NCBI GenBank assembly: GCA_025350145.1
Contig: JANXYH010000154.1
Coordinates: 1 to 49,076, forward strand
DNA: 49,076 nt
DNA from: Burkholderiales bacterium
GTDB taxonomy: Bacteria; Pseudomonadota; Gammaproteobacteria; Burkholderiales; Burkholderiaceae_C
Direction of reading: 5' to 3'
The position numbers and the translations under genes were made by a program. Under the pieces are notes generated by a model. That model saw only the letters and a list, made by a program, of their open reading frames with translations, did no database searches and had not been told where the DNA came from. How positions within the stretch are numbered: the stretch's first letter is position 1; every line of letters starts with the position of its first letter. Positions 27,204 to 40,585 of the stretch are shown here, piece by piece.

Positions 27204-28112
27204 CTAGAGCTGCGCGCAATGCGCCGGCAGGCCCGGCACGGCCACCCGCAGGATCAGCACCCGGCCGGCCCAGGGCTGGGCCAGCAACTCGGGCGCCGGG
27301 CGGTTCTCGCGCGAACTGGTGATGTACAGGCTGCACAGGTCGGCCCCGCCGAAGCAGGGCATCGTCGGGCAGCGCACCGGCAGTGGCAGCGTCTGCAGCA
27401 GGCGGCCGTCGCCGTCCAGGCGCAACAGGCGCTGGCCTTCGAACATCGCCAGCCAGTAGTGGCCAAGGCTGTCCATGGCCGCGCCGTCGGGGCGGCCGGG
27501 GTAGTCGTCCAGGGACTGGCCATCGGCGAGCGGCGCGAACTGGGCGTAGCTGCGGCGCCGCGAGAGTGCGCCGCTGGCCGGGTCGAGGTCGAAGGCGTAG
27601 ACCGCATGGGCGCGGGTGTCGGCCCAATGCAAGGTTCGCCCGTCGGGGCTGAAGGCCAGACCGTTGCTGGTGGTGATGCCGCCGGCCACCTTGGACAGCC
27701 GGCCGCGGTCCAGGCAGTACAGCGCTGCCCGGGGCTGGCGCTGTTCATCGATGGTGCCGACCCAGAAGCGGCCCTGGGCATCGGCCTTGCCATCGTTGAA
27801 GCGCTCGGTCGCGGTGTCGTAGGGCGGCTCGGCGATGCGCTGCCGCTTGCCGCTGCGGGTGTCGAAGCTGAAGATGCCGTCGCGCATCGCCAGCAGCAGG
27901 CCGCCGCCGAGCAGTGGCGCGACACAGGCCGGCTCTGCCGCAAAGTCCCAGTGGCGGTGGCTGGCGCTGGCCGGGTCGAACCGGTTCAGGCGTTTGCCCG
28001 GGATGTCGCACCAGTAAAGCACCTGCTCGTCCGGGTGCCACAGCGGCGATTCGCCCAGCAGCGAGGCCGCCACCGGCAGTACGCCGATGCCGGCGCCCGG
28101 CGCTGCTGCCAT
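27204..28112 (-). CDS. SMP-30/gluconolactonase/LRE family protein
   Basis: A 302-residue six-bladed beta-propeller lactonase. The divalent-metal ligands of the family can be placed at E21 (LGESPLW), N106 (RFNDGK), N150 (TTSNGLAFSPDG) and D209 (RPDGAAMD). It would hydrolyse a sugar 1,4/1,5-lactone to the aldonic acid. Its ATG overlaps the TGA of the aldose 1-epimerase by one base (TGATG), so the two are co-translated, fitting a sugar oxidation step. 89 bp separate it from atpI. Confidence 0.9.
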   Translation of the reverse strand: MAAAPGAGIGVLPVAASLLGESPLWHPDEQVLYWCDIPGKRLNRFDPASASHRHWDFAAEPACVAPLLGGGLLLAMRDGIFSFDTRSGKRQRIAEPPYDTATERFNDGKADAQGRFWVGTIDEQRQPRAALYCLDRGRLSKVAGGITTSNGLAFSPDGRTLHWADTRAHAVYAFDLDPASGALSRRRSYAQFAPLADGQSLDDYPGRPDGAAMDSLGHYWLAMFEGQRLLRLDGDGRLLQTLPLPVRCPTMPCFGGADLCSLYITSSRENRPAPELLAQPWAGRVLILRVAVPGLPAHCAQL

Positions 28113-28975
28113 CAGACCGCAGCCACCTCGAGCAGGAACGAGGCGTCCATCGTCTGGCCGGGCTGGAGCGTGCGCAGGCCGTGCGCTGCGGGGTCGGCCA
28201 TGTGGATGGCGTTGTTGACATGGCTGACCGGCTCGACGCAGAAATAGCCCTTGGTCTGCGGCGTGTAGACGACCAGGTAGGGCAGCGACGCGCTGAGCTT
28301 GAGGCTCAGCTTCTCGTCGCGGATTCGCGCCGCGCCGCGCCAGCCTTCGAAACAGTTGTCGAAATCCAGGTGCGCGATGTCACTGTCGATGCCGGGCTGC
28401 GGCATCCGCCGGGTCGGCAACTCGGTGGTCGGATCGCGCTCCCAGCGGTCGGTCAGCTCGGCGTGCAGACGGCTGCGCGCGCGCTTGGGGAAATAGGGAT
28501 GCCAGCCCAGGCCAGCGGGCGCCGCCACGGCGGCGGTGTTGGTCAGGCTCAGGTCCAGGCGCAGGGCGTCGGGCGTGAGCTGGAGATGCTGGGTCAGGGT
28601 GAAATCGAAGGGCCAATGGCCGTCGGCAACGTGGCGGTACTCCAGCTCGGCCTGCGCCGTATCGGCCCGCCGCACCACCCAAGGCTGGCGCCAAGCGGTG
28701 CCATGCAGCGAATGCGGCGCACCGTCGAAGTTGGGCAGGGTCGTGTGGTCATGGCCCTGCCAGCGAAAACGCCTGTAACCCAGCCGGTTGCTGTAGGGCG
28801 CGAGCACGAATCCGCCTGACTGGCGCGGCGAATCCAGTGCCAGGGCATTGCTGTCGCTGACCAGCACCGGCAGGTCGCCATGCCACAGCCCGGCGATCGC
28901 ACCGCCCAGGTCAGGTCGCAGCACCAGTCGCAGGACGTCGGCGCGCAGCTCTAGGGTGGTCGGCGTGGGTTTCAT
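28112..28975 (-). CDS. Aldose 1-epimerase (GalM-like)
   Basis: A 287-residue mutarotase-fold enzyme interconverting alpha and beta anomers of an aldose. The active-site pair of histidines lies in SLHG and GLGWHPYF, and the catalytic Glu in FCVEPVSH. It is slightly shorter than E. coli GalM (346) and closer to the compact bacterial epimerases found in sugar-acid operons. It forms a two-gene unit with the downstream lactonase; the GNAT gene is 39 bp upstream. Confidence 0.9.
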   Translation of the reverse strand: MKPTPTTLELRADVLRLVLRPDLGGAIAGLWHGDLPVLVSDSNALALDSPRQSGGFVLAPYSNRLGYRRFRWQGHDHTTLPNFDGAPHSLHGTAWRQPWVVRRADTAQAELEYRHVADGHWPFDFTLTQHLQLTPDALRLDLSLTNTAAVAAPAGLGWHPYFPKRARSRLHAELTDRWERDPTTELPTRRMPQPGIDSDIAHLDFDNCFEGWRGAARIRDEKLSLKLSASLPYLVVYTPQTKGYFCVEPVSHVNNAIHMADPAAHGLRTLQPGQTMDASFLLEVAAV

Positions 28976-29014
28976 CGGATCAGCCTGCGGTGGTGGAAAG
29001 CGGCCGGCACGGCC

Positions 29015-29506
29015 TCAATCGAGGTCTACCTTGAGGTAGTGCGCGCCGGCAATCGGGTTGAAGTAGTACGGTGGAATCTCGTCAAAACCCAGTGACACGT
29101 ACAGGCCGCGCGCCGACTCCATCTCGTCCAGCGTGTCCAGCAGCATGCACGAGTAGCCGGCCTGCTTGGCCTTGTCCATCAGCGCCTGCGCCAGCATCCG
29201 CCCCAGGCCAAAGCGACGGAACGCCGGCCGCACGTACAGCCGCTTCATCTCGCAGGCGTTGGGGTAGTCGACATCGGTGAGCCCGCGCAGCGCACCGCAG
29301 CCGGCCAGCCGGCCATCGACATAGGCCAGCAGCAAACTGCCGCGCGGGGCGGCGTAATCCCCCGGCAGGCAGTCCAACTCGGCCGCGAAATCCTGAAAGC
29401 ACAGGTCGATGCCCAGCGCTGCGGCGTACTCGCGGAAGATGTCGCGCGTGGCGTCCAGCGCCTGCGGCGAGCCGGGCTCAAGCAGGGCAATCTTCGGCGA
29501 TGCCAT
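29015..29506 (-). CDS. GNAT family N-acetyltransferase
   Basis: A 163-residue GCN5-type acetyltransferase. The acetyl-CoA-binding motif A is RPAFRRFGLGRMLAQAL, preceded by EMKRLYV and followed by the LDTLDEMESARGLYVSLGF block, which matches the PanZ/RimI-like small-molecule or protein acetylase layout. The acceptor is unknown. It lies 39 bp upstream of the epimerase and may share its transcript. Confidence 0.9.
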   Translation of the reverse strand: MASPKIALLEPGSPQALDATRDIFREYAAALGIDLCFQDFAAELDCLPGDYAAPRGSLLLAYVDGRLAGCGALRGLTDVDYPNACEMKRLYVRPAFRRFGLGRMLAQALMDKAKQAGYSCMLLDTLDEMESARGLYVSLGFDEIPPYYFNPIAGAHYLKVDLD

Positions 29507-29571
29507 CTACGGGGATGTGGGGGCAGGAGCGCCGCAGTCTAACCGCGCCGATTCGCCGTTCTGCGGCCGCT

Positions 29572-30270
29572 TCAGCCGCCCAGCTTGGCCAGCAAACCTG
29601 CGCCGGTCATGCACAGCAGCGCCAGCACCAGCGCCAGCAGCCGGGTCGCCCAGGTGTCGCGCGAGGGCGGCACCTCGCCCGCCAACAGCTTGTCGCCGAC
29701 CAGCATCGGTTTGACCAGGCTGATGCCGCGGCGCTTGTAGAACAGGATTGCGGCCAGGTGCAACACCACCATCGCGATCAGGATCCATTGCCCGGCGCCG
29801 GTGTGCCAGGCGGTGGCGGCCAGCGCCCGCGCGTTGGCGACGTACTTGTTCAGCGGCCCGGTGGTGGCGACTTCGTCATCGGCAACCAGACCGGTCGCCA
29901 CCTGCACCAGCAGCAGCGCCAGCATGCCCAGCACCGAGAGGCTGCCCAAGGGGTTGTGGCCGACCTCGAAATGCTCGCCCGGCCGTTGCTGGCCGCGCAG
30001 GTAGCGCAGCAGCGTGGCCGGGGCGTAGATGAAGCTGGCAAAGCGCGACCAGCGCCCGCCGACCAGCCCCCAGACCAGCCGGAACACCAGCAAGGCCAGC
30101 ACCATCAGGCCGATCCGCATGTGCCAGTCCAGCGCCCCGACATAGCCGGTGACGATCAAGGCCACTACCATGCTCGCCAACAGCCAGTGGAAGACGCGGG
30201 TCGGCAAATCCCAGACCCGGACAGCACGGGTCGCGGCGGTGGCCTCGGGCAAGGCATTGGGGTTGGGCAT
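29572..30270 (-). CDS. Cytochrome b561 family protein
   Basis: A 232-residue membrane cytochrome with about four or five helices. Haem-ligand candidates are the histidines in RVFHWLLA, VGHNPLG, TAWHTGAG and VLHLAAIL, matching the bacterial b561 / Ni,Fe-hydrogenase b-type layout. It would carry electrons between the membrane quinone pool and a periplasmic partner. It is divergent from the cytochrome c' gene (235 bp apart), a pairing found in many betaproteobacteria. ATG 30270 starts a short Ala/Glu-rich tail before helix 1. Confidence 0.9.
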   Translation of the reverse strand: MPNPNALPEATAATRAVRVWDLPTRVFHWLLASMVVALIVTGYVGALDWHMRIGLMVLALLVFRLVWGLVGGRWSRFASFIYAPATLLRYLRGQQRPGEHFEVGHNPLGSLSVLGMLALLLVQVATGLVADDEVATTGPLNKYVANARALAATAWHTGAGQWILIAMVVLHLAAILFYKRRGISLVKPMLVGDKLLAGEVPPSRDTWATRLLALVLALLCMTGAGLLAKLGG

Positions 30271-30505
30271 GGCGAACTCGGTGGCGGGCAGGCGGGGCCT
30301 GCAACCATAGCCGAAGTGCGCCGGCTTGGCGCCGCGTCCGGCCGCGCCGCCCCGGCCTGCACCCAGGCCAACCCCCATGGAATATTGACAGCGCTGGCCC
30401 GTAGACTGCCCGGGCGTTGCTGCCGCCGCGACTTGAACGGTTGGCAGCATCGCCCGAGCCTTCAGTCCCGGACCGCAGCCGGTCCCCTACCTTCGGAGAA
30501 CCCGC

Positions 30506-30976
30506 ATGAACCGTCGCCTTCTGGCCGCCGCCACCTTCGTGGTGGCCTGGGTCAGCCTGCCCGCTGCCGCCCAATTCCAAAAGCCTGAGGACGCGATCAA
30601 GTACCGCCAAAGCGCCCTGACGGTGATGTCCACCCACTTCGGCCGGGTCGCCGCCATGGCCGCTGGCCGCATCCCCTATGACGCCAAGGCCGCCAGCGAC
30701 AACCTGGCCATCGCCGTCATGGCCTCGCGTCTGCCGTTCGTCGCCTTTGTCGAGGGCAGCGACAAGGGCCTGCCCAACCGCGCCAAGCCCGAGGTCTGGA
30801 GCCAGAACGCCAAGTTCAAGGAATTGGCCGAGAAGATGCAGGGCGAATTGGCCAAGCTCGACACCGCCGCCAAGGCCGGCACCCTGGACGCCCTGAAGCC
30901 GGCGGTGGCCGCCACAGGCGCTGCCTGCAAGGCCTGCCACGACGACTTCCGGGCCGAGAAGTACAGCGCCAACTGA
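30506..30976 (+). CDS. Cytochrome c'
   Basis: A 156-residue periplasmic four-helix-bundle cytochrome. A Sec signal peptide ends near residue 22 (LPAAAQ). The single haem-c site CKACH is at 141-145 near the C-terminus, as in all class II c-type cytochromes. These proteins bind NO and help resist nitrosative stress. The Shine-Dalgarno is TCGGAGAA. TTGACA lies upstream (30385-30390), but no -10 is at the right distance. The divergent b561 gene may encode its redox partner (inference). Confidence 0.93.
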   Translation: MNRRLLAAATFVVAWVSLPAAAQFQKPEDAIKYRQSALTVMSTHFGRVAAMAAGRIPYDAKAASDNLAIAVMASRLPFVAFVEGSDKGLPNRAKPEVWSQNAKFKELAEKMQGELAKLDTAAKAGTLDALKPAVAATGAACKACHDDFRAEKYSAN

Positions 30977-30986
30977 GCCCGCTGCC

Positions 30987-31051
30987 AGAACTCAGCCCGG
31001 GCTGGCGCCCGGGTCGGCAAAGCCGAGGATGACCCTGCGGGTCATCGCTGA
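30987..31051. repeat. 65-bp direct repeat, copy 1 (AlaX 3'-end fragment)
   Basis: Identical over 65 bp to 31102-31166, which forms the end of the AlaX gene. Copy 1 lies just past the cytochrome c' stop. On the minus strand it still reads the AlaX C-terminal codons and stop; just outside it, a degraded stretch still resembles the preceding AlaX codons but has lost a few codons and gained a stop. The unit is rich in dyads (CAGCCCGGGCTG; GATGACCC with GGGTCATC). Confidence 0.85.
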
Positions 31052-31072
31052 CTACTTTGGTGTTCACGTCAC

Positions 31073-31097
31073 GTGCACTGCGTGCACATGAGTGCAC
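31073..31097. repeat. Three GTGCAC palindromes in 25 bp
   Basis: GTGCAC occurs at 31073-31078, 31082-31087 and 31092-31097, spaced 9 and 10 bp, in the short gap between the two 65-bp repeat copies. It could be a protein-binding site or just junction sequence. Confidence 0.5.
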
Positions 31098-31101
31098 CCC
31101 A

Positions 31102-31166
31102 AGAACTCAGCCCGGGCTGGCGCCCGGGTCGGCAAAGCCGAGGATGACCCTGCGGGTCATCGCTGA
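31102..31166. repeat. 65-bp direct repeat, copy 2
   Basis: Second identical copy; it contains the AlaX stop codon and its last 19 sense codons. The two copies are offset by 115 bp. Confidence 0.85.
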
Positions 31167-31838
31167 TTTCTTTTCCACCTTGGTGACGATGACGGGGCCG
31201 ATCTCGGCGGTGTTGCCGACATGGGTGCCGCCGCAGGGCTGCAGGTCGACGCCGTGGATCTCCAGCACCCGGATGCGGCCCATGCCGCGCGGTGGTTGCA
31301 CGCTCATGCTGCGCACCAGGCCGGGGTTGGCGTCGAGTTCGGCCTCGCTGATCCAGCGGTGGCTGACCGGGTGAGCGGCGGCGACCAGGCGGGCGATCCC
31401 GGCCGAGAGTTCGGCCTTGTCCAGCGGCTCGGCCATGTGGAAATCCAGCCGGGCATAGCCGGCGGTGATCGAGCAGCCGTCTACCGGGTGCGGCACCAGC
31501 GCGCACAGCAAATGGGTGGCGGTGTGGAAGCGGCGGTGGGCGTCGCGTTTGGCCCAGTCGATCTCGACCTCGACCTGCTCACCGACATGCCAGGCCGAGA
31601 GCCCATCGGCGACAGCCGGAAGGTGCAGGATCTGGCCCGGCTCCGTGCCCTTGCGGGTGTCGGCCAGCGCCAGCACCCGGCCATCGGCGGCGCGCAGATA
31701 GCCGCTGTCACCGGCCTGGCCGCCGCCCACGGGATAGCAGACGCTGCGGTCGAGCTGAATGCCGCGCGCGTCGATGGCGATGATCCTGGCCAGGCAGTGG
31801 CGCAGGGTCGAGTCCTCGCGGAACAGTTCTTCGGTCAT
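31107..31838 (-). CDS. AlaX-type alanyl-tRNA editing protein
   Basis: A 243-residue stand-alone editing domain that deacylates tRNA-Ala wrongly charged with Ser (or Gly). The zinc site is complete: H105 and H109 (HTATH) with C202 and H206 (CGGTH). The Gly-rich GGGQAGDSG near 38-46 and the basic end VEKKSAMTRRVIL are also typical. It is a full-length editing protein without the AlaRS catalytic domain. Last gene of the MocR-linked unit, 6 bp after the VOC gene. Its final 19 codons lie in a 65-bp repeat, and the DPGASPG end is specific to this copy. Confidence 0.93.
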   Translation of the reverse strand: MTEELFREDSTLRHCLARIIAIDARGIQLDRSVCYPVGGGQAGDSGYLRAADGRVLALADTRKGTEPGQILHLPAVADGLSAWHVGEQVEVEIDWAKRDAHRRFHTATHLLCALVPHPVDGCSITAGYARLDFHMAEPLDKAELSAGIARLVAAAHPVSHRWISEAELDANPGLVRSMSVQPPRGMGRIRVLEIHGVDLQPCGGTHVGNTAEIGPVIVTKVEKKSAMTRRVILGFADPGASPG

Positions 31839-31844
31839 GGTGTT

Positions 31845-32522
31845 TCAGGCCCAGTCATAGCCGCTCAATTCGACCCGCCCCAGCGGGGTGTGCAAACCCA
31901 CCTGCAACCAGGCCGAGCCGGATCTGCCAGCAGTATTGACCAGCGCCCCGCGCAAGCCCAGCGCCTGCGCCGCGGCCTCGGGCAGGGTGCTCAGCCGCAG
32001 CTCCGCCAGACTGACCTGGCTGGCCGGCATCGCGTCGCAGGGATGGGCGCCGCACCACTCGATCAGCGTCGGCATGGCGCCACGGCCGGCGAAATTGCCG
32101 TCGACATTCAGCGCCAAGCGCCAGCGCAGCAGGCCCTGCGCGGTCTGGCGTTCGGCGGCAATGATCTGTCCGGCGTCCTGACCGGCAGCAGCCAGCGCCG
32201 CATGCAAGGCATCCAGGGCGCTGCTGCGGGCGACGAAGTGGACCAGCCTGGGGGCACTGCGGATGCGCAAACGCAGGCCCGGGTCGTCCATGCCGAACCA
32301 GCGCGGCCGGGCGGGCGGCGGTGCCTGCGGATCGATGGCGATGATTTCAAGGTAGCTGCCCGGGAAGGCCGGGCCGGACAGGTTCAGCAGGCAGTTGTGG
32401 GTGCCCATGGTGGCGTGCTTGCCGCCCGGCCCGGGCGCGACGCCCAGCGTCGCCCGGCACCAGGCCGCGCCATGGGCCAGGCTGTCCGCCACCACCACCA
32501 GGTGGTCGATCTGGCTGAACAT
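31845..32522 (-). CDS. VOC protein with glyoxalase-like domain
   Basis: A 225-residue protein starting FSQIDHLVVVADSLAHG and containing the SYLEIIAID block, typical of the Glyoxalase_3 type (PF13468) VOC domain. The remainder (about 110-225) is a second, more diverged half. The reaction is unknown. Its ATG overlaps the TGA of the PhzF gene by one base (TGATG), so it is translationally coupled in the MocR-linked unit. Confidence 0.85.
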   Translation of the reverse strand: MFSQIDHLVVVADSLAHGAAWCRATLGVAPGPGGKHATMGTHNCLLNLSGPAFPGSYLEIIAIDPQAPPPARPRWFGMDDPGLRLRIRSAPRLVHFVARSSALDALHAALAAAGQDAGQIIAAERQTAQGLLRWRLALNVDGNFAGRGAMPTLIEWCGAHPCDAMPASQVSLAELRLSTLPEAAAQALGLRGALVNTAGRSGSAWLQVGLHTPLGRVELSGYDWA

Positions 32523-33358
32523 CACAGGCTCACGCTGCCGGTGACCACGGGCGTGACATCGCCGCCGATCCAGATGTCGTCGCCGATCTGCGCTACATGC
32601 ACCCGACCGGCCCGGCCCAGCGCTGCGCCCTGGGCGGCAACATAGTGCTGCGGCGCCAGACCGGCGCCTATCAGCCACTGCGCCAGGCCGGCGTTTAGGC
32701 TGCCGGTGACCGGGTCCTCGGGCACGCCCAGACCGGGCGCGAAGGCGCGCACCTCGAAGGCGCACTCGCTGCCCGGCGGATGCGCCCCGACCACGCCGAG
32801 CTTGAGGTCGGCCATGGCCAAGAAATCGGGTCTGAGCGCGAGCACGCTGGCCGCGTCGGCCAGTTGCGCGGCCAGCCAGCCGGGGCCGTTGTCGGCCCAT
32901 TGCAGGCCCAGCAACGCCGCCTCGGGCAGGCGCAGCGCGGCCAGCACCTGGGCTCGGGTGGCGGCGTCGGCCGGGCCGCTGCGGCGCAAGGCTGGCGCGG
33001 CAAAGGCCAGTCGCCCGGCGTCGCGCCGCACCCGCACCAGGCCGAGACCGCATTCCTGGACCACCACTTCGGGCTGGCGCGGGCGGCCACCCGCGGCCAG
33101 CCAGGCCCAGCACGAGCCCAATGTCGGGTGGCCGGCGAAGGGCAGTTCGCCGCTGGGGGTGAAGATGCGCACTCGGTAGTCGGCCTGATCGCTGGTCGGC
33201 GGCAGCAAGAAGGTGGTCTCGGACAGGTGGGTCCAGCGCGCGAAATCGGCCATCTGCGCGTCGCTCAGGCCGGCCGCGTCGTGAACCACCGCCAGCGGGT
33301 TGCCGCGCAGCGGCACGGCGGTGAAGACATCGAGTTGGCTGAAAGTGCGGGTGGCCAT
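32522..33358 (-). CDS. PhzF family isomerase/epimerase
   Basis: A 278-residue enzyme with the two-lobed diaminopimelate-epimerase-like fold. The N-terminal signature VFTAVPLRGNPLAVV and the catalytic Glu E47 (HLSETTF) are intact, and FTPSGELPFAGHPT forms the substrate loop. Family members isomerise or epimerise small acids and amino-acid derivatives. ATG 33358 has a well-spaced AGGAG; a TTG 21 bp further upstream overlaps the previous gene's stop and is less likely. Coupled to VOC downstream. Confidence 0.92.
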   Translation of the reverse strand: MATRTFSQLDVFTAVPLRGNPLAVVHDAAGLSDAQMADFARWTHLSETTFLLPPTSDQADYRVRIFTPSGELPFAGHPTLGSCWAWLAAGGRPRQPEVVVQECGLGLVRVRRDAGRLAFAAPALRRSGPADAATRAQVLAALRLPEAALLGLQWADNGPGWLAAQLADAASVLALRPDFLAMADLKLGVVGAHPPGSECAFEVRAFAPGLGVPEDPVTGSLNAGLAQWLIGAGLAPQHYVAAQGAALGRAGRVHVAQIGDDIWIGGDVTPVVTGSVSL

Positions 33359-33375
33359 AGTCGCAATGCTCCTGT

Positions 33376-34371
33376 TCAAGCGCTGGCGAGCACCTGGGCA
33401 AACAAGGCTCGGTCGACATTGCCGCCCGACAGCACGACCGCGCTGCGGCGGCCGGCCAGCCGGGCCCGTTCCTGGGTCGCGGCGGCCAGTGCGGCCGCAC
33501 CCGCGCCCTCGGCGACCTGGTGGCTGGCCTCGTAGAGCCGGACCATCGCCTGCGCGACCTCGGCATCCGTGACCTGGACGACCCGGGCCAGGCCCCGGCC
33601 CAGCATCGCCAGGGCCTCAGGGTCGGGCGTGCGCACCGCCATGCCGTCGGCCAGCGCGGTCGTCACCGCATGCGACTGCGCCCGGCCCGAGGCCAGTGAC
33701 AGCGCGTAGGCCGGCGCATGGCTGGAGGTGACGCCGACGACTTCGGTCGCCAGGCCGAGCGCGTCGCGCGCGGCAATCACGCCGCAGGCGCCGGAACCCA
33801 GACCAATCGGCACGTAGACCGTGTCAATGTCGGCCACCGCGTCGAACAGCTCCAGCGCATAACTGGCCACCCCAGCCACCAGGTCGGGGTGGAACGACGG
33901 CAGCATCGGCCAGCCGCGCTCGGCGGCGAGTTTTGCGGCGTGCTCGCGCGCGGCCTGAAAGTCCTCACCATGCTCGACCAGTTCGGCGCCCAGGGCACGC
34001 ATCGCCGCATTCTTTTCGCGGCTGTTGCCCAGCGGCACGACGACCAGCGCCGTGACGCCGTGGCGGGCGGCGGCAAAGGCGATCGATTGACCGTGGTTGC
34101 CGCGGGTGGCAGTGACGACGCCCGCCGGCCGGGCCGGGCCCACGGCAGCGATCCAGCGCGCAAAGTAGACCAGGCCGCCGCGGATCTTGAACGCGCCAAC
34201 GGGGGTGTGGTTCTCATGCTTGAGCCACAGTTCGGTGCCGTCTCCGGGGCGCCCGGCGAAGGCCTGTTCGAGCAGCGGCCAGCGGTACTGCGGCGTCGCC
34301 GGCATGAGCGCGTGGACACAGCGCGCGGCCTCGCGCAGTGCCGCCAGTGTGTGGCCAAGTTCGGTCGTCAT
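33376..34371 (-). CDS. PLP-dependent threonine/serine dehydratase-like enzyme
   Basis: A 331-residue fold-type II PLP enzyme with no regulatory ACT domain. The PLP lysine is K62 in GAFKIRGG, and the phosphate-binding loop is GLGSGACG. It resembles threonine ammonia-lyase, serine racemase and hydroxyaspartate dehydratases, which turn beta-hydroxy amino acids into keto acids and ammonia; the exact substrate cannot be assigned. Its ATG overlaps the stop of the aminotransferase remnant by 4 bp (ATGA). 17 bp lie between its stop and the PhzF start. Confidence 0.85.
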   Translation of the reverse strand: MTTELGHTLAALREAARCVHALMPATPQYRWPLLEQAFAGRPGDGTELWLKHENHTPVGAFKIRGGLVYFARWIAAVGPARPAGVVTATRGNHGQSIAFAAARHGVTALVVVPLGNSREKNAAMRALGAELVEHGEDFQAAREHAAKLAAERGWPMLPSFHPDLVAGVASYALELFDAVADIDTVYVPIGLGSGACGVIAARDALGLATEVVGVTSSHAPAYALSLASGRAQSHAVTTALADGMAVRTPDPEALAMLGRGLARVVQVTDAEVAQAMVRLYEASHQVAEGAGAAALAAATQERARLAGRRSAVVLSGGNVDRALFAQVLASA

Positions 34372-34787
34372 GCGGCTTGCAATGCCTGGCTGTGGCGGTG
34401 TTGGGCCAACACCTGCCCGAGTCTGGCGACCGCCGTGTTGACCTGATCGGGCGACAGGGTGACGAACGACAGCCGCAGCGTGCGCGGGTCCGGCGGGCCG
34501 ACATAGAAGGCCGCGCCCGGGACAAAGGCGATGCCCGCAGCCAGCGCCAGCGGCAGCAGGGCAGTGGCGTCGCAACCCGGCGGCAGGCGCAGCCAGAAGA
34601 ACATCCCGCCCTGGGGCATCTGCCAGTGCGTGCCGGCGGGCATGTGGCTGGCCAGCGCCTGGGCCATGGCCTGCGCCTGGGCGCGGTAGCGGGCGCGGAT
34701 GGTCGGCACATGGCGCGCTAGAAAGCCATCGCGGATGGCCGAGGGGTTCAGACGCGCGCTGCGTCCGGCTGGGTTCCATAAAGGCAT
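34368..34787 (-). pseudogene. Internally deleted PLP aminotransferase (2-aminoadipate-transaminase-like)
   Basis: A 139-residue open frame with a strong GGAGGAG Shine-Dalgarno and an ATG at 34787. Its first 19 residues end SARLNPSAIR, the usual start of LysN/MocR-type aminotransferases. Directly after come residues that belong to the C-terminal small domain (FLARHVPTIRARYRAQ, then GGMFFWLRLP and TLRLSFVT). About 250 residues in between, including the PLP-binding lysine, are missing, and the frame is kept. The join is near 34728-34733. It cannot be catalytic; it might be a decay product, an assembly gap, or a surviving small-domain protein. It sits between the EamA and dehydratase genes. Confidence 0.78.
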
Positions 34788-34802
34788 CGCCACTCCTCCC
34801 AC

Positions 34803-35753
34803 TCAATCCACCGGCTGGCGCTTGGACAAGAACACCGTGGCCATCACCGCCAGCGAAAAGATGACCGTGGTCGCATCCAGGGACTCGCCCAGCACGGGCA
34901 CGGCCAGCCACATCGAGGCAAACGGCTGCAGCAACTGGATCTGGCTGACGCGCAGCATGCCGCCAAGCTGCAGGCCTCGGTACCAGGCAAAGAAGCCCAG
35001 CCACATCGAGAACACCGCCACGTAGACGAAGCCGCCCCAGGCGGCGGCGCGCACCGGCACCTCGGGCCAGTACAGCAGCGCCACCGGCAGGGTCAGCGGC
35101 AGGCACATGACCAGCACCCAACTGATCACTTGTTCGGGCGCCATCGCACTGAGCTTGCCAGGCCCGGGCGCCGACAGCCGGGCGCCGAAGACATAGCCCA
35201 CGCCGCCCCAGGCCACCGCCAACAGCAGCAAGCCATCGGCGATTTGCAGCCGGGCGCCGCCCTTGAACAATGCAAAACCGAGCACCAGCACCGTGCCCAG
35301 CCCGGCGCAGGCCCAGAAGCCGCGGCTGGGGCGCTGGCGCAGGACCAGCGCGCCGATCACCGCCGTGGCGATCGGCAGCAGGCCGGAGACCACGGCCGCA
35401 TGGGCGGCGTCGACCCGGTACACCGCCAGGCCAAGGAAGAACGGAAAGCCGAACACCACCCCCGAGGCGGTGATCCCCAGGCCGCGCCATTGGCCCGCCT
35501 GCGGACGCGGCGCGCGGCTCAGCCACAGCCAGATCGCCGCCAGGATGCCGGCCAGCGCGGCCCGGCCTATCGCCACGAACACCGGCGGCAACTGCGGCGC
35601 CGCCTGGCTGCCCGAGGCCAGCCGGGTCATCGGGATCGTCAGGGCGAAGATCAGCACGCCCAGGCCACCCAGCAACCAGGCTCGCGCGGTGGGCGACCGC
35701 CAACCGGCGGCGTGGGCTGGCGGGTGGGCAAGAGCAGGGGCGGGACCAGACAT
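34803..35753 (-). CDS. EamA/RhtA-family (DMT) transporter
   Basis: A 316-residue membrane protein with ten hydrophobic helices in two EamA repeats (about 28-155 and 165-310). DMT proteins of the RhtA/YdcZ group export amino acids such as threonine or homoserine, and many MocR or PLP-enzyme operons carry one. ATG 35753 is preferred to a GTG two codons upstream. First gene of the six-gene unit; it is divergent from mocR with a perfect dyad between. The exported solute is an inference from neighbours. Confidence 0.88.
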   Translation of the reverse strand: MSGPAPALAHPPAHAAGWRSPTARAWLLGGLGVLIFALTIPMTRLASGSQAAPQLPPVFVAIGRAALAGILAAIWLWLSRAPRPQAGQWRGLGITASGVVFGFPFFLGLAVYRVDAAHAAVVSGLLPIATAVIGALVLRQRPSRGFWACAGLGTVLVLGFALFKGGARLQIADGLLLLAVAWGGVGYVFGARLSAPGPGKLSAMAPEQVISWVLVMCLPLTLPVALLYWPEVPVRAAAWGGFVYVAVFSMWLGFFAWYRGLQLGGMLRVSQIQLLQPFASMWLAVPVLGESLDATTVIFSLAVMATVFLSKRQPVD

Positions 35754-35799
35754 GACCACAGTCTAGGCCCGGCACAGACACACAATGCAGCACAGTTGA

Positions 35800-35824
35800 C
35801 GGTACAGGGCAATACACTGTACCG
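35800..35824. promoter_or_regulatory. Candidate MocR operator (8+8 bp dyad)
   Basis: CGGTACAG (35800-35807) and CTGTACCG (35817-35824) are exact inverted repeats with a 9-bp spacer in the 93-bp gap between the divergent EamA and MocR genes. GntR/MocR regulators bind such gaps to control both genes. Confidence 0.6.
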
Positions 35825-35846
35825 ACGCCAACGCCGACACAGCCGC

Positions 35847-37328
35847 ATGAATGCCCCTCAGGAACCGCCCGCACTGGCGCTGCAGCGCGGCGCCCGCCAG
35901 ACCCTGTCCGAGCAGTTGTGCGCCAGCTTTGCGCAGCGCATCCGCAGCGGCGATCTGGCCAGCGGGGCGCGTCTGCCCTCGGTACGGGACTGCGCCAGGG
36001 CCCAGCGCCTGAGCCCCAGCACCGTGGTCGCGGCCTACGACCGGTTGCAGGCCCAGGGCCTGGTGCAGGCGCGGCAGCAGCGTGGCTATTTCGTCCGCGA
36101 CGCCGCCGCCCAGGTCGCGACCGCCGAGCGGGCGCCGCTGCCAGCAGCCCCCGCCTTGGCCGCGCCGGTCGACGCGACGGCGCTGATCCGCGGCATGTTT
36201 CAGGGCGCCGAAGGCCACCCCATCCCCGCCGGGCCGGGCATGGGCACGCTGCCCGAAGCCTGGCTGGACCAGCCGCTGCTCGACCGGGCGCTGCGCCGGG
36301 CCATGGCCGGGCCCAGCCAGGCGCTGCGCTACGGCGAGCCGGCCGGCGATCCGGGCCTGCGCCAGGCGCTGGCGCGGCGGCTGTCGGCCGACCTTGGCAT
36401 CGCCGCCGAGCCGGCGCAGATCGTCACCACCCTGGGCGCCACCCATGCCCTCGACCTGGTGGCGCGCAGCCTGCTGCAGCCGGGTGACGCGGTGCTGGTC
36501 GACGACCCCGGCTGGGCGATGGAATTTGCCCGCCTGGGCCGCATGGGCATGCGCTTGTTGCCGGTGCCGCGCGACGCCAACGGCCCCGACCTGGAGCGGA
36601 TGCAGGCGCTGCTGGCTGAGCACCGGCCGCGCGTGTACGTGACCGTTTCGGTGCTGCACAACCCGACCGGCCACAGCCTGTCGCTGGCCACCGCCCACCG
36701 CATCCTGCAACTGGCCGAGGCGCATGACCTGATGATCGTCGAGGACGACACCTATGCCTGGCTGGCACCCGGCCACAGCCCGCGCCTGTGCGCACTCGAC
36801 GGCCTGCGCCGCACCGTCTACGTCTCCGGCTTCAGCAAGATCCTGGCGCCGAACTGGCGGGTCGGCTACCTGGCTGCGGCACCCGCACTGGCCCAGCGCT
36901 GCATCGACACCAAGCTGTTGACCACCCTGACCACACCGGCGCTGTTGGAGCAGGCCGTGGCCTGGTGCCTGGACCAGGGGCTGCTGCGCCGGCATGCCGA
37001 ACGGGTGGTGCAGCGCCTGGCACTGGCGCGCAGCCGGGTCAGACGGCTGGCTGAAAGCGCCGGCTGCCGCTTCGTGGCGCCGCCACAGGGGCTCTTCGGC
37101 TGGGTCGACTGCGGCGTCGATGCCGACGTGCTGGCGAGCCGCCTGGCCGAACGCGGCTGGTTGGTCGCCCCTGGCAGCTTGTTCCATGCCCGTCCCCAGC
37201 CCAGCACACTGATGCGGCTGAACTTTGCCAGTGCCCAGCAGTTGGAGTTCTGGCGCGCGTTTGCCGCCGTGCGTGACACCTTGGCGCCCCCCGGATCGGG
37301 ACTTGCCAACGTCGGCGGTCAGCGCTAA
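35847..37328 (+). CDS. MocR-type (GntR + aminotransferase) transcriptional regulator
   Basis: A 493-residue regulator joining an N-terminal GntR winged helix (about 15-85; SGARLPSVRDCARAQRLSPSTV) to a fold-type I aminotransferase-like domain (about 110-480). The PLP site block YVSGFSKILAPNWRVGY holds the Schiff-base lysine. Such proteins bind PLP or a PLP-amino acid adduct and switch a neighbouring operon. It is intact, unlike the aminotransferase remnant in the divergent unit. ATG 35847 is the first codon of the GntR domain; no strong Shine-Dalgarno is visible. Confidence 0.92.
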   Translation: MNAPQEPPALALQRGARQTLSEQLCASFAQRIRSGDLASGARLPSVRDCARAQRLSPSTVVAAYDRLQAQGLVQARQQRGYFVRDAAAQVATAERAPLPAAPALAAPVDATALIRGMFQGAEGHPIPAGPGMGTLPEAWLDQPLLDRALRRAMAGPSQALRYGEPAGDPGLRQALARRLSADLGIAAEPAQIVTTLGATHALDLVARSLLQPGDAVLVDDPGWAMEFARLGRMGMRLLPVPRDANGPDLERMQALLAEHRPRVYVTVSVLHNPTGHSLSLATAHRILQLAEAHDLMIVEDDTYAWLAPGHSPRLCALDGLRRTVYVSGFSKILAPNWRVGYLAAAPALAQRCIDTKLLTTLTTPALLEQAVAWCLDQGLLRRHAERVVQRLALARSRVRRLAESAGCRFVAPPQGLFGWVDCGVDADVLASRLAERGWLVAPGSLFHARPQPSTLMRLNFASAQQLEFWRAFAAVRDTLAPPGSGLANVGGQR

Positions 37329-37486
37329 GGTTGACGGTTGAAACCTCCTGACACGAATCGGCGGCTTCGCTTGTCGGCCGGATGCGACATCCGCGCCCCG
37401 AGCTTCAATTAGCATTTGCCGCCGGTTTTACCCGGCTCGCATGGGAAGCTGCAACCATGGCCAAACCGTTGGCACGACCGAATGAT

Positions 37487-37506
37487 GGCGCCATGCCCAT
37501 GGCGCC
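37487..37506. promoter_or_regulatory. 8-bp perfect palindrome with 4-nt loop
   Basis: GGCGCCAT and ATGGCGCC (37487-37494 and 37499-37506) form a strong hairpin in the 238-bp gap upstream of the unrecognised 256-residue protein. A locally A/T-richer stretch lies around it. It could be the end of the mocR transcript or an operator. Confidence 0.35.
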
Positions 37507-37566
37507 GCCGCCGCAGCCCGGCCGCAGTTAAAAGATTCGCTCCAAAGTCGACTTGCCAACGCCACG

Positions 37567-38337
37567 ATGTTCGCCTCCACCCTGCCGCAAAGCCTGCCTG
37601 CCCCGCTGCGGCCACCGCGCGGGCTGCCGACCGACGAATGCTCTAGGCTGGACCTGGACAGCCTGGATGGCCAGGACGCCGTGGCGCATGGCGCGCCGAA
37701 CACCCGCCTGAGCTCGCTTTCGCCGTCGCTGCTACAGGATTTGCAGCGCTTTGAGGCCGGCGGCGCGCCGCAGACCGAGTTGGTCGAGGTGCTGGCCGCG
37801 TGCATCCGCCACACCCAGGCGCTGGGCATCGTGCTGCTGCGTGGCCAGAAGGTGCTGTCGCTGACCGCCTTCCCGCTCGACAAGCTGGTGCATTGCGTGG
37901 TGCCGATGGCCGAGTTCGTCGCCGCTGACCTGGCCGGGCTGAAGGTGCTGCAGGTAGAGCCGGCACGGGTCGAGCGGCCCGGCCCCGCGCGCCTGGGCGC
38001 CGACACGCTGGGCCATTTCGGTGCCATGTCCACGCTGCTCTGGGAGATCGCCCTGCGTGGCTCGCGCAACAGCCTGCTGCCCGAGTTGGCCGGCCGCGCC
38101 GCCTTCCGCATCGCCCCGGGGGTGATCCTGCACGGCCTGCGCGTGCCCGGCGCGATGGCCAATGCCGTCACCCGGATGCGCCGCCAGACCTGCAACGTCG
38201 GCGACATCGCCGGCTGGCCGGGCCTGAATGCGCCACGCGCCGCGCGCCTGGTCAACGCCCTGTACCTGCAGTCGGCGCTGATCGTCAGCCGCACCCACCC
38301 GGCGGCGACGAACGAAGGCTGGATCGGCTACCGCTGA
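37567..38337 (+). CDS. Uncharacterised protein
   Basis: A 256-residue soluble protein with no signal peptide and no membrane helix. The N-terminal 45 residues are Pro/Leu-rich. A middle part (about 65-125) alternates hydrophobic and charged residues (VLLRGQKVLSLTAFPLDKL). The C-terminal part (about 190-245) could be helical and HTH-like (CNVGDIAGWPGLNAPRAARLV), which is only a composition-based guess. It stands alone, converging with uup and sharing a palindrome over both stops. I do not recognise the family. Confidence 0.65.
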   Translation: MFASTLPQSLPAPLRPPRGLPTDECSRLDLDSLDGQDAVAHGAPNTRLSSLSPSLLQDLQRFEAGGAPQTELVEVLAACIRHTQALGIVLLRGQKVLSLTAFPLDKLVHCVVPMAEFVAADLAGLKVLQVEPARVERPGPARLGADTLGHFGAMSTLLWEIALRGSRNSLLPELAGRAAFRIAPGVILHGLRVPGAMANAVTRMRRQTCNVGDIAGWPGLNAPRAARLVNALYLQSALIVSRTHPAATNEGWIGYR

Positions 38338-38349
38338 GGCCGGGCCGGC

Positions 38350-38356
<7 letters not shown>
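38331..38356. terminator. Palindrome spanning two convergent stop codons
   Basis: CCGCTGAG (38331-38338) and CTCAGCGG (38349-38356) are perfect inverted repeats with a 10-nt loop; one stop codon lies in each arm (TGA at 38335-38337 and the uup stop at 38350-38352). No U-tract follows. Confidence 0.5.
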
Positions 38357-40221
<1,865 letters not shown>

Positions 40222-40291
40222 GGCCGGGATTGTCCGGGATCGGCCGGTTAGGCTAGCGCCGCCCTGCCACCACCCACCCAAGGAAACCGCC

Positions 40292-40585
40292 ATGGCCACC
40301 TACGTCGTCTTCGATGTCGAGATCCGCGATGCCGCGCGGTTTGCCGAGTTCATGCAAGGCGTCAAGCCGGCGATTGAGGCGGCGGGGGCGCGCTACCTGG
40401 CGCGCGGCGGCGCCCACCAGGTCTGGGAGGGCGATTGGCAGCCGCGGCGGATCGTGCTGCTGGAGTTTCCCAGCGCGGCGGCCTGGCAGGCGTTCTACGA
40501 AGGCCCGGTCTACCAGGGCCTGAAGGCCATCCGCGACGAGTGCAGCTCGGCCAGGCTGGTGAGCTTCGAGGGCCTGGCCAGTTGA
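40292..40585 (+). CDS. DUF1330 family protein
   Basis: A 97-residue small protein of the ferredoxin-like alpha/beta-barrel DUF1330 family: it starts ATYVVFDVEIRDAARFAEFM, with GGAHQVWEGDW and PRRIVLLEFPS typical of the family. The function is unknown; it may bind a small molecule. An AAGGAA Shine-Dalgarno lies at 40280-40285. It is followed by a GC-rich dyad and then the aminotransferase gene 108 bp downstream. Confidence 0.9.
   Translation: MATYVVFDVEIRDAARFAEFMQGVKPAIEAAGARYLARGGAHQVWEGDWQPRRIVLLEFPSAAAWQAFYEGPVYQGLKAIRDECSSARLVSFEGLAS

Follow-up and report, generated by a model that had tools for sequence, protein, structure and literature searches.

A gene cluster that ends in AlaX, a free-standing alanyl-tRNA editing protein, was analysed in a bacterium of the order Burkholderiales (GenBank assembly GCA_025350145.1; genome of 4.56 Mb, 98% complete). 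The window, that is, the whole stretch of DNA studied, comprises 49,076 nucleotides with 69% GC and corresponds to one contig (JANXYH010000154.1). Gene models and family matches place six genes on the minus strand in the order EamA transporter, aminotransferase remnant, dehydratase, PhzF-family isomerase, VOC protein and AlaX, opposite a divergent regulator of the MocR type (Table 1). The junctions from EamA to AlaX measure 15, -4, 17, -1 and 6 bp and the start codons of EamA and MocR lie 93 bp apart, in agreement with a preliminary description, made from the sequence alone, of six tightly packed genes facing a MocR gene. The present account builds on the content, order, close spacing and conservation of these genes, on an operator-like site between MocR and EamA and on the repeated association of AlaX with MocR genes.

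Table 1. Genes and operator-like site of the AlaX cluster (positions refer to the window).
Feature	Position	Strand	Basis
AlaX, free-standing AlaRS-type editing domain, AlaX-M size class, last operon gene	31107-31838	-	PF07973, AlaRS and AlaXM models
VOC / Glyoxalase_3 protein	31845-32522	-	PF13468, E 4e-37
PhzF-family isomerase	32522-33358	-	PF02567, TIGR00654; PDB relatives include YddE and PhzF
Fold-type-II dehydratase dependent on pyridoxal phosphate (PLP), PRK06110 subfamily, ATRGNHGQS loop	33376-34371	-	PRK06110 481.6 bits, PALP family
Aminotransferase remnant, 786-bp in-frame internal deletion	34368-34787	-	Alignment to 8 intact relatives
EamA (DMT superfamily) transporter, first operon gene	34803-35753 (ATG) or 35759 (GTG)	-	PF00892, two stretches
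Operator-like site CAGCACAGTTGACGGTACAGGGCAATACACTGTACCG in the MocR-EamA spacer	35788-35824	not assigned	Spacing kept in relatives
Divergent MocR-type regulator, GntR helix-turn-helix and Aminotran_1_2 domain, SGFSK lysine	35847-37328	+	PF00392, PF00155

The regulator has the two parts that define the MocR type, a GntR helix-turn-helix domain (PF00392) and a fold type I aminotransferase domain (PF00155), and since the SGFSK lysine read from its translation is kept, binding of PLP and formation of an external aldimine are plausible. Its best NCBIfam model is PdxR (NF052282). This score is one of two points in favour of a reading that we consider very improbable, in which the operon would be a PdxQ-type regulon for homeostasis of PLP (vitamin B6), with AlaX as no more than a general helper. 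The other is that PdxQ regulons hold genes for DMT and LysE exporters, PhzF (COG384), GloA-type proteins and aminotransferases (PMC5320631; papers cited by PMC number are drawn on for part of their text). Against it, the PdxR match reaches 224.6 bits, below the cut-off of 320, and pdxO/pdxH (pyridoxamine-phosphate oxidase) did not turn up among the genes mapped here, although no search aimed at pdxO/pdxH was made.

The operator-like site, CAGCACAGTTGACGGTACAGGGCAATACACTGTACCG, consists of two direct boxes whose starts lie 12 bp apart and, 15 bp further on, an inverted box, and two direct boxes with one inverted box are also the commonest motif structure described for MocR regulators (PMC5320631, in the part available). 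The best match to the pattern reaches at least 14 of 17 positions in 25 of 34 spacers and shuffled spacers reach this level in 0.06% of cases, the boxes having been derived from the same 34 spacers on which they were scored and the shuffles being mononucleotide shuffles. When eight genomes were scanned with up to three mismatches allowed, six gave one match each, all six in the MocR-EamA spacer, two (G016 and G043) gave none, and a backwards control pattern gave one match across the eight; the single match in the window's genome lies in the MocR-EamA spacer. The site is described as a conserved candidate operator. Other searches of the region were negative: a sigma-70 scan of positions 29000-40000, little informative in a GC-rich genome, returned no promoter-like site (shuffles give 0.4), Rfam returned nothing at gathering thresholds between 28000 and 41000, and ARAGORN found no tRNA within the window.

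AlaX has 243 residues and shows the editing fold of alanyl-tRNA synthetase (AlaRS) with an N-terminal barrel and without the aminoacylation domain. Its predicted structure (pLDDT 86.6) is matched by Foldseek to the AlaX-M structures 9iuw and 2e1b, with TM scores of 0.82-0.84 normalised by the AlaX-M chains, and the zinc ligands H105, H109, C202 and H206 (HxxxH...CxxxH) are identical in all 92 other aligned rows, two records being present twice. The likeness to AlaX-M thus covers the whole-length fold and the zinc-site motif, whereas identity in the Foldseek alignments is 25%, the window's gene sits in a metabolic operon and its score against the AlaXM model (NF040865) is 162.7 bits, short of the cut-off of 300. 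That cut-off was reached, among the matches listed, by none of 299 phylum-wide genomes compared with 2 of 14 control genomes; because it is missed, the protein is called AlaX-M-like and no more. It is likely to act as a remover of wrong amino acids from tRNA-Ala. An 85-nt direct repeat (30974-31058 and 31089-31173, 91% identical, spacing 115) spans the AlaX 3' end together with the interval before the neighbouring cytochrome c' gene and contains a terminator-like palindrome; since it covers the AlaX 3' end, the tail of the gene looks recently duplicated.

The dehydratase passes the cut-off of the PRK06110 'threonine dehydratase' model (NCBIfam NF004771) with 481.6 against 317 bits, and its predicted structure (pLDDT 90.3) has TdcB as top Foldseek match. 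It shares with TdcB and IlvA fold type II and GAFK-like and SGGN-like motifs, and differs in the absence of a C-terminal regulatory domain and in the substrate loop: the S-x-G-N-H loop of Ser/Thr ammonia-lyases is missing, with TRGNHG in the place of ASAGNHAQG of the aligned TdcB and IlvA PDB chains. The sequence ATRGNHGQS is present in 36 of 36 aligned rows (L021-L036 and L122-L133, some genomes twice), and such an unvarying loop suggests that PRK06110 proteins may use a substrate other than that of TdcB and IlvA. 'Threonine dehydratase' is therefore a name given by homology. The dehydratase alone does not define the system, because a 62%-identical copy on a Pseudomonas aeruginosa plasmid (L143) stands outside any such module. 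EamA contains PF00892 in two stretches, as expected of its internal repeats, and export of amino acids is a prediction from its family; for VOC and EamA no sequence-level PDB relative was found at E 0.01.

The aminotransferase gene is indeed a remnant, as the preliminary description had it. Eight same-genus relatives carry an intact gene of 401-420 codons at the same place, compared with which the window's copy joins about 18 N-terminal residues in frame to the last 126 or so of a protein of about 401; the 262 codons deleted include the segment of the catalytic PLP lysine. The deletion breakpoints share 10 bp in L021, the relative with the most similar dehydratase, and a shorter match in other relatives. 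The intact family is nearest in the PDB, by sequence, to 2-aminoadipate aminotransferases, the rest of the window's genome (98% complete) yielded no close copy of full length, and the aminotransferase step is lost in this genome; the gene is wholly absent from three further same-genus loci (L022-L024). Relative to the dehydratase, the distance of the remnant to the intact copies is 1.66, compared with 1.14 among intact copies, so it looks to be evolving faster under modestly relaxed selection. Decay of the whole module was considered and rejected: the end branch of AlaX is long, but a GNAT control gene evolves just as fast, with a ratio of 1.31 compared with 1.28 for AlaX, and thus only the remnant looks relaxed.

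Conservation was assessed in two samples, in which close relatives repeat one another throughout all counts. The first consists of the best 80 of 159 AlaX loci from a genome scan, with gene starts estimated from alignment. A module gene lies upstream of AlaX in 64 of the 80 loci, at a gap of at most 100 bp in 58 of these 64 and with overlap in 29, and the gene directly before AlaX is VOC (47 loci), PhzF (9), the dehydratase (7) or the aminotransferase (1). Where the upstream flank reaches at least 7 kb (57 loci), MocR, EamA, aminotransferase, PhzF and AlaX occur together in 33 and none of the genes in 10. Modules of relatives also add a LysE exporter and an Asp/Glu-type racemase.

The second sample comprises 150 genomes of the window's family (completeness of at least 90% requested), of which 57 carry AlaX, 49 the dehydratase, 113 PhzF and at least 119 the aminotransferase, the last counted at 51% identity or more among the matches listed, with weaker rows dropped. 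The aminotransferase is no more than 3 kb from PhzF in at least 97 of the 113 PhzF genomes, and the dehydratase is equally close to PhzF in 46 of 49. AlaX is found downstream of PhzF on the same strand at up to 3 kb in 25 of its 57 genomes, a number that rises to 26 at 5 kb, 40 at 30 kb and 46 at 100 kb. The conserved co-occurrence for which the preliminary description proposed a search is in this respect beyond chance. In the genus of the window, the dehydratase is found in 12 of 20 genomes (window's genome excluded) and six of these 12 loci contain AlaX (L021, L025, L028-L031). Sorted by gene content, the 20 same-genus genomes (G001-G020) comprise six with dehydratase and AlaX, six with the dehydratase alone, eight with AlaX alone and none with neither (Fisher p 0.042); the corresponding numbers for the 150 family genomes are 27, 22, 30 and 71 (p 0.004). 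That the two genes act as mutual substitutes was rejected as unsupported, given that they co-occur family-wide, that the counts ignore kinship and that some genomes are incomplete.

Beyond AlaX, positions 28112-30976 contain an aldose epimerase, a GNAT, a cytochrome b-like (named by eye) and a cytochrome c' gene, which are conserved in many relatives. An ABC-F-like ATPase gene (38350-40299, also named by eye) lies one gene past MocR and is near MocR in L126 and L127 as well; ABC-F proteins frequently act on the ribosome.

Clusters of MocR and AlaX also occur outside this family. A second family of the same order has, opposite a divergent MocR gene, the arrangement VOC-AlaX-LysE-EamA-Rid-aminotransferase or AlaX-EamA-Rid-aminotransferase (six loci mapped fully or nearly), with proteins 43-45% (MocR), 44-46% (EamA) and 53-56% (aminotransferase) identical to those of the window and with similar NNTACAG boxes, read by eye, in the spacers. 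Of 150 genomes searched there, 83 gave a total of 85 matches. Thirty loci were examined, of which 24 have module genes flanking AlaX and six show none of the genes looked for; the matches beyond these 30 are mostly of lower identity. In another class, a divergent MocR gene faces dehydratase, AlaX and PhzF, in this order: among 26 AlaX loci from 36 genomes, 20 have the dehydratase next to AlaX, 19 contain PhzF and 15 show MocR (flanks of at most 1.5 kb). The dehydratase of this class scores 509.9 bits with PRK06110 (L147), and the MocR there is of another, EhuR-like kind that shares 25-30% identity with that of the window.

The AlaX tree separates these clusters. The operon copies of the second family are not sister to the Sphaerotilaceae-type copies, whereas the non-module copies of that family are (support 100/99). 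Grouping all module copies in one clade is rejected (p-AU 2.8e-37), in a test that is strict because it forces nearby non-module copies apart. Three further constraints, chosen after the tree had been seen and run with the long branch L202 omitted, are also rejected: the whole Sphaerotilaceae-type group with the operon copies of the second family (p-AU 0.0095), the two AlaX types of the second family together (p 0.022) and the Sphaerotilaceae-type group, again in full, joined with both the second and the third lineage (p 0.00044). The groups take their names from neighbourhoods; in the tree of the named loci, four with short flanks (L075, L084, L086, L090) were left unscored and two others with short flanks (L076, L099) were scored 'none', L127/L055 and L129/L057 are duplicate records, and several loci repeat named ones (L021/L061, L025/L064, L028/L037, L029/L038). 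Because the tree separates the clusters, repeated recruitment of AlaX is likely, and its separate recruitment to MocR clusters is probably the simplest reading.

The neighbours of AlaX were also surveyed across the phylum in a draw of 299 genomes, from which 57 of about 60 stand-alone AlaX loci, among the matches listed, were fetched (G000, G098 and G114, of the window's family, left out). Neighbours were taken as co-directional genes within 150 bp, found with a simple open reading frame picker, the loci being inferred from lengths unless typed. The 41 upstream neighbours include 15 PALP enzymes, 15 MscS-type channels, four Hexapep proteins and two Glyoxalase_3 proteins, and the 29 downstream ones 17 rhodaneses, two LysE exporters and one PhzF. 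Typing identified three cysteine synthases A and one PRK06110 protein among four PALP neighbours, serine O-acetyltransferase as the best match, under its cut-off, of two Hexapep proteins, and 3-mercaptopyruvate sulfurtransferase as the single rhodanese typed. Contrary to expectation, EamA was not found among these close neighbours at E 1e-5. Among 14 records of AlaX-bearing plasmids, the annotated region was viewed in three: AlaX lies behind LysE in Priestia, in front of a DMT transporter on Agrobacterium pAt and behind cysteine synthase on S. meliloti pSymB. Serine/cysteine metabolism, like amino-acid export, recurs beside AlaX, though related genomes repeat one another. Some arrangements are recurrent, such as cysteine synthase A, AlaX and rhodanese (3-mercaptopyruvate sulfurtransferase where typed or annotated) in L148, L155, L191 and L140, and, in L153, L156 and L158, a Hexapep gene resembling serine O-acetyltransferase that ends 29 bp before AlaX (L153 and L156 being the two typed with NCBIfam). 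The gene of a large MscS-type mechanosensitive channel lies within a few bp of AlaX in one family (L157, L159, L160, L166, L168, L171-L173, L175, L176 and similar loci).

The interpretation that we favour, and to which we would give an even chance, is that the cluster is a MocR-controlled amino-acid stress operon, by which a serine-like amino acid would be exported and degraded while AlaX clears mischarged tRNA-Ala. MocR with its PLP would sense the amino acid and release the divergent promoter, and EamA (also LysE in relatives) would export it. The dehydratase, PhzF and VOC proteins, with the intact aminotransferase, the racemase or the Rid protein in relatives, would destroy it or tidy its reactive products, and AlaX, presumably made from the same mRNA, would strip it from tRNA-Ala on which AlaRS had placed it. 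The likeliest target would be L-serine or a small serine-derived amino acid, a best guess because AlaXp hydrolyses Ser-tRNA-Ala and Gly-tRNA-Ala (PMC11295145) and because serine supplementation strongly slows Escherichia coli with an editing-deficient AlaRS (PMC6918089), both statements being taken from the accessible parts of these papers. The 'Ser-like' amino acid of the preliminary description stands to the extent that it fits the known AlaX substrates (PMC11295145 and PMC3158927, in part) and the serine- and cysteine-type neighbours of AlaX. On a wider scale it is proposed, tentatively and with less than even confidence, that an inducible translation-quality circuit was built at least three separate times, in which a PLP-dependent MocR couples export or destruction of a serine-type amino acid to AlaX and so raises tRNA-Ala proofreading when that amino acid rises.

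Several observations weigh against the stress-operon interpretation. Six of the 12 same-genus dehydratase loci lack AlaX (L022-L024, L026, L027, L032), and none was found anywhere in those six genomes (61-99% complete; G001 61%), so that AlaX appears dispensable in the genus, lost or never gained in half of the modules. The claim of a conserved MocR-linked unit with AlaX must be narrowed to this extent, while the tight position of AlaX behind four different upstream genes and its recurrence in two other lineages sustain it. The same absence would suit a threat met in some habitats only, as would be the case if the logic were unchanged and the target were a non-protein or otherwise foreign amino acid that plants or competitors make and that mimics alanine or serine, as canavanine is for CtdA. 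This version, which we regard as rather unlikely, also draws on the Asp/Glu-type racemase and the two exporter types in relatives' modules and on the precedent of a stand-alone editing protein tied to a canavanine operon (PMC10018355, in part), whereas the frequent position of AlaX elsewhere beside ordinary cysteine- and serine-pathway genes points to a common metabolite.

The family-wide distribution is uneven as well. No upstream module gene accompanies AlaX in 16 of the 80 loci (10 with at least 5 kb of flank and 6 with less), the aminotransferase is far more widespread than AlaX (at least 119 and only 57 of 150 genomes, respectively), and the dehydratase is present in only 9 of the 57 AlaX loci with at least 7 kb upstream and in 3 of the 25 close AlaX-PhzF modules. 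The exact six-gene make-up of the window is for this last reason a minority form, and dehydratase and AlaX, which the preliminary description joined with the exporter in one job, occur together in the window but seldom among close modules. In other genera AlaX stands apart, and in 20 of 57 genomes it shares the strand of PhzF but lies 5-80 kb further downstream; four of the 57 copies lie beyond 100 kb (three on the other strand), seven have no PhzF on their contig, and in both set-apart loci mapped (L122, L124) AlaX is divergent from a creatininase-like gene. These set-apart loci are the main evidence for a passenger origin, in which AlaX was ancestrally downstream on the same strand and came to lie beside the operon through loss of intervening genes. 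Conservation of the other flank of AlaX (cytochrome c', GNAT) and its absence from half of the same-genus modules agree with such an origin. It is nevertheless quite improbable in our view, as short overlaps between AlaX and the upstream gene persist while that gene changes, and MocR-AlaX clusters with other gene orders, and with AlaX from other branches of the tree, occur in two other lineages. Two points concern the proteins themselves: the dehydratase loop, being unlike that of TdcB and IlvA, leaves activity on Ser or Thr unassured, and EamA could import, or could carry something else.

If the proposed circuit is true, it would explain why bacteria with an editing AlaRS keep AlaX, whose presence beside an editing-competent AlaRS is usually put down to general redundancy (PMC3158927, in part). 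Through a MocR-linked operon AlaX would acquire a sensor, a pathway as its partner and an amino acid that can be tested. The EamA, PhzF, Glyoxalase_3 and PRK06110 proteins, whose names here come from homology alone, would gain a physiological lead.

The preliminary statement that no system of this make-up has been described was too strong, since PdxQ regulons, CtdA and FthB/FthC are similar in part. As far as found, prior art covers, through PdxQ, the MocR-exporter-PhzF portion and, through CtdA and FthB/FthC, the notion of a dedicated editing factor, but not AlaX in a MocR regulon, of which no description was found in the open-licence literature, including combinations with PhzF, exporter, RidA and resistance. 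The PdxQ-type MocR regulons (PMC5320631; Suvorova and Rodionov, 2016) resemble the window in MocR control of the exporter, PhzF, GloA-type and aminotransferase genes listed above and in operators with direct and inverted repeats; they differ in that 'alanyl' has no occurrence in the main text of that paper and that threonine dehydratase is named there under other MocR regulons, not in the PdxQ passage. CtdA, a canavanyl-tRNA-Arg deacylase (PMC10018355), is likewise a stand-alone editing protein genetically tied to the catabolism of one troublesome amino acid, but is of the B3/4 type, acts on tRNA-Arg and is encoded directly upstream of the canavanine operon, with neither MocR nor exporter in the part of its description available. 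FthB and FthC of fluorothreonine producers (PMC7408626, in part) pair a tRNA deacylase with an exporter for one toxic amino acid and are conserved in biosynthetic clusters; they serve self-protection of the producer, and the deacylase belongs to another family, related to ProXp-ST1 (PMC11295145, in part). The circuit proposed here would add AlaX to the short list that includes CtdA and FthB.

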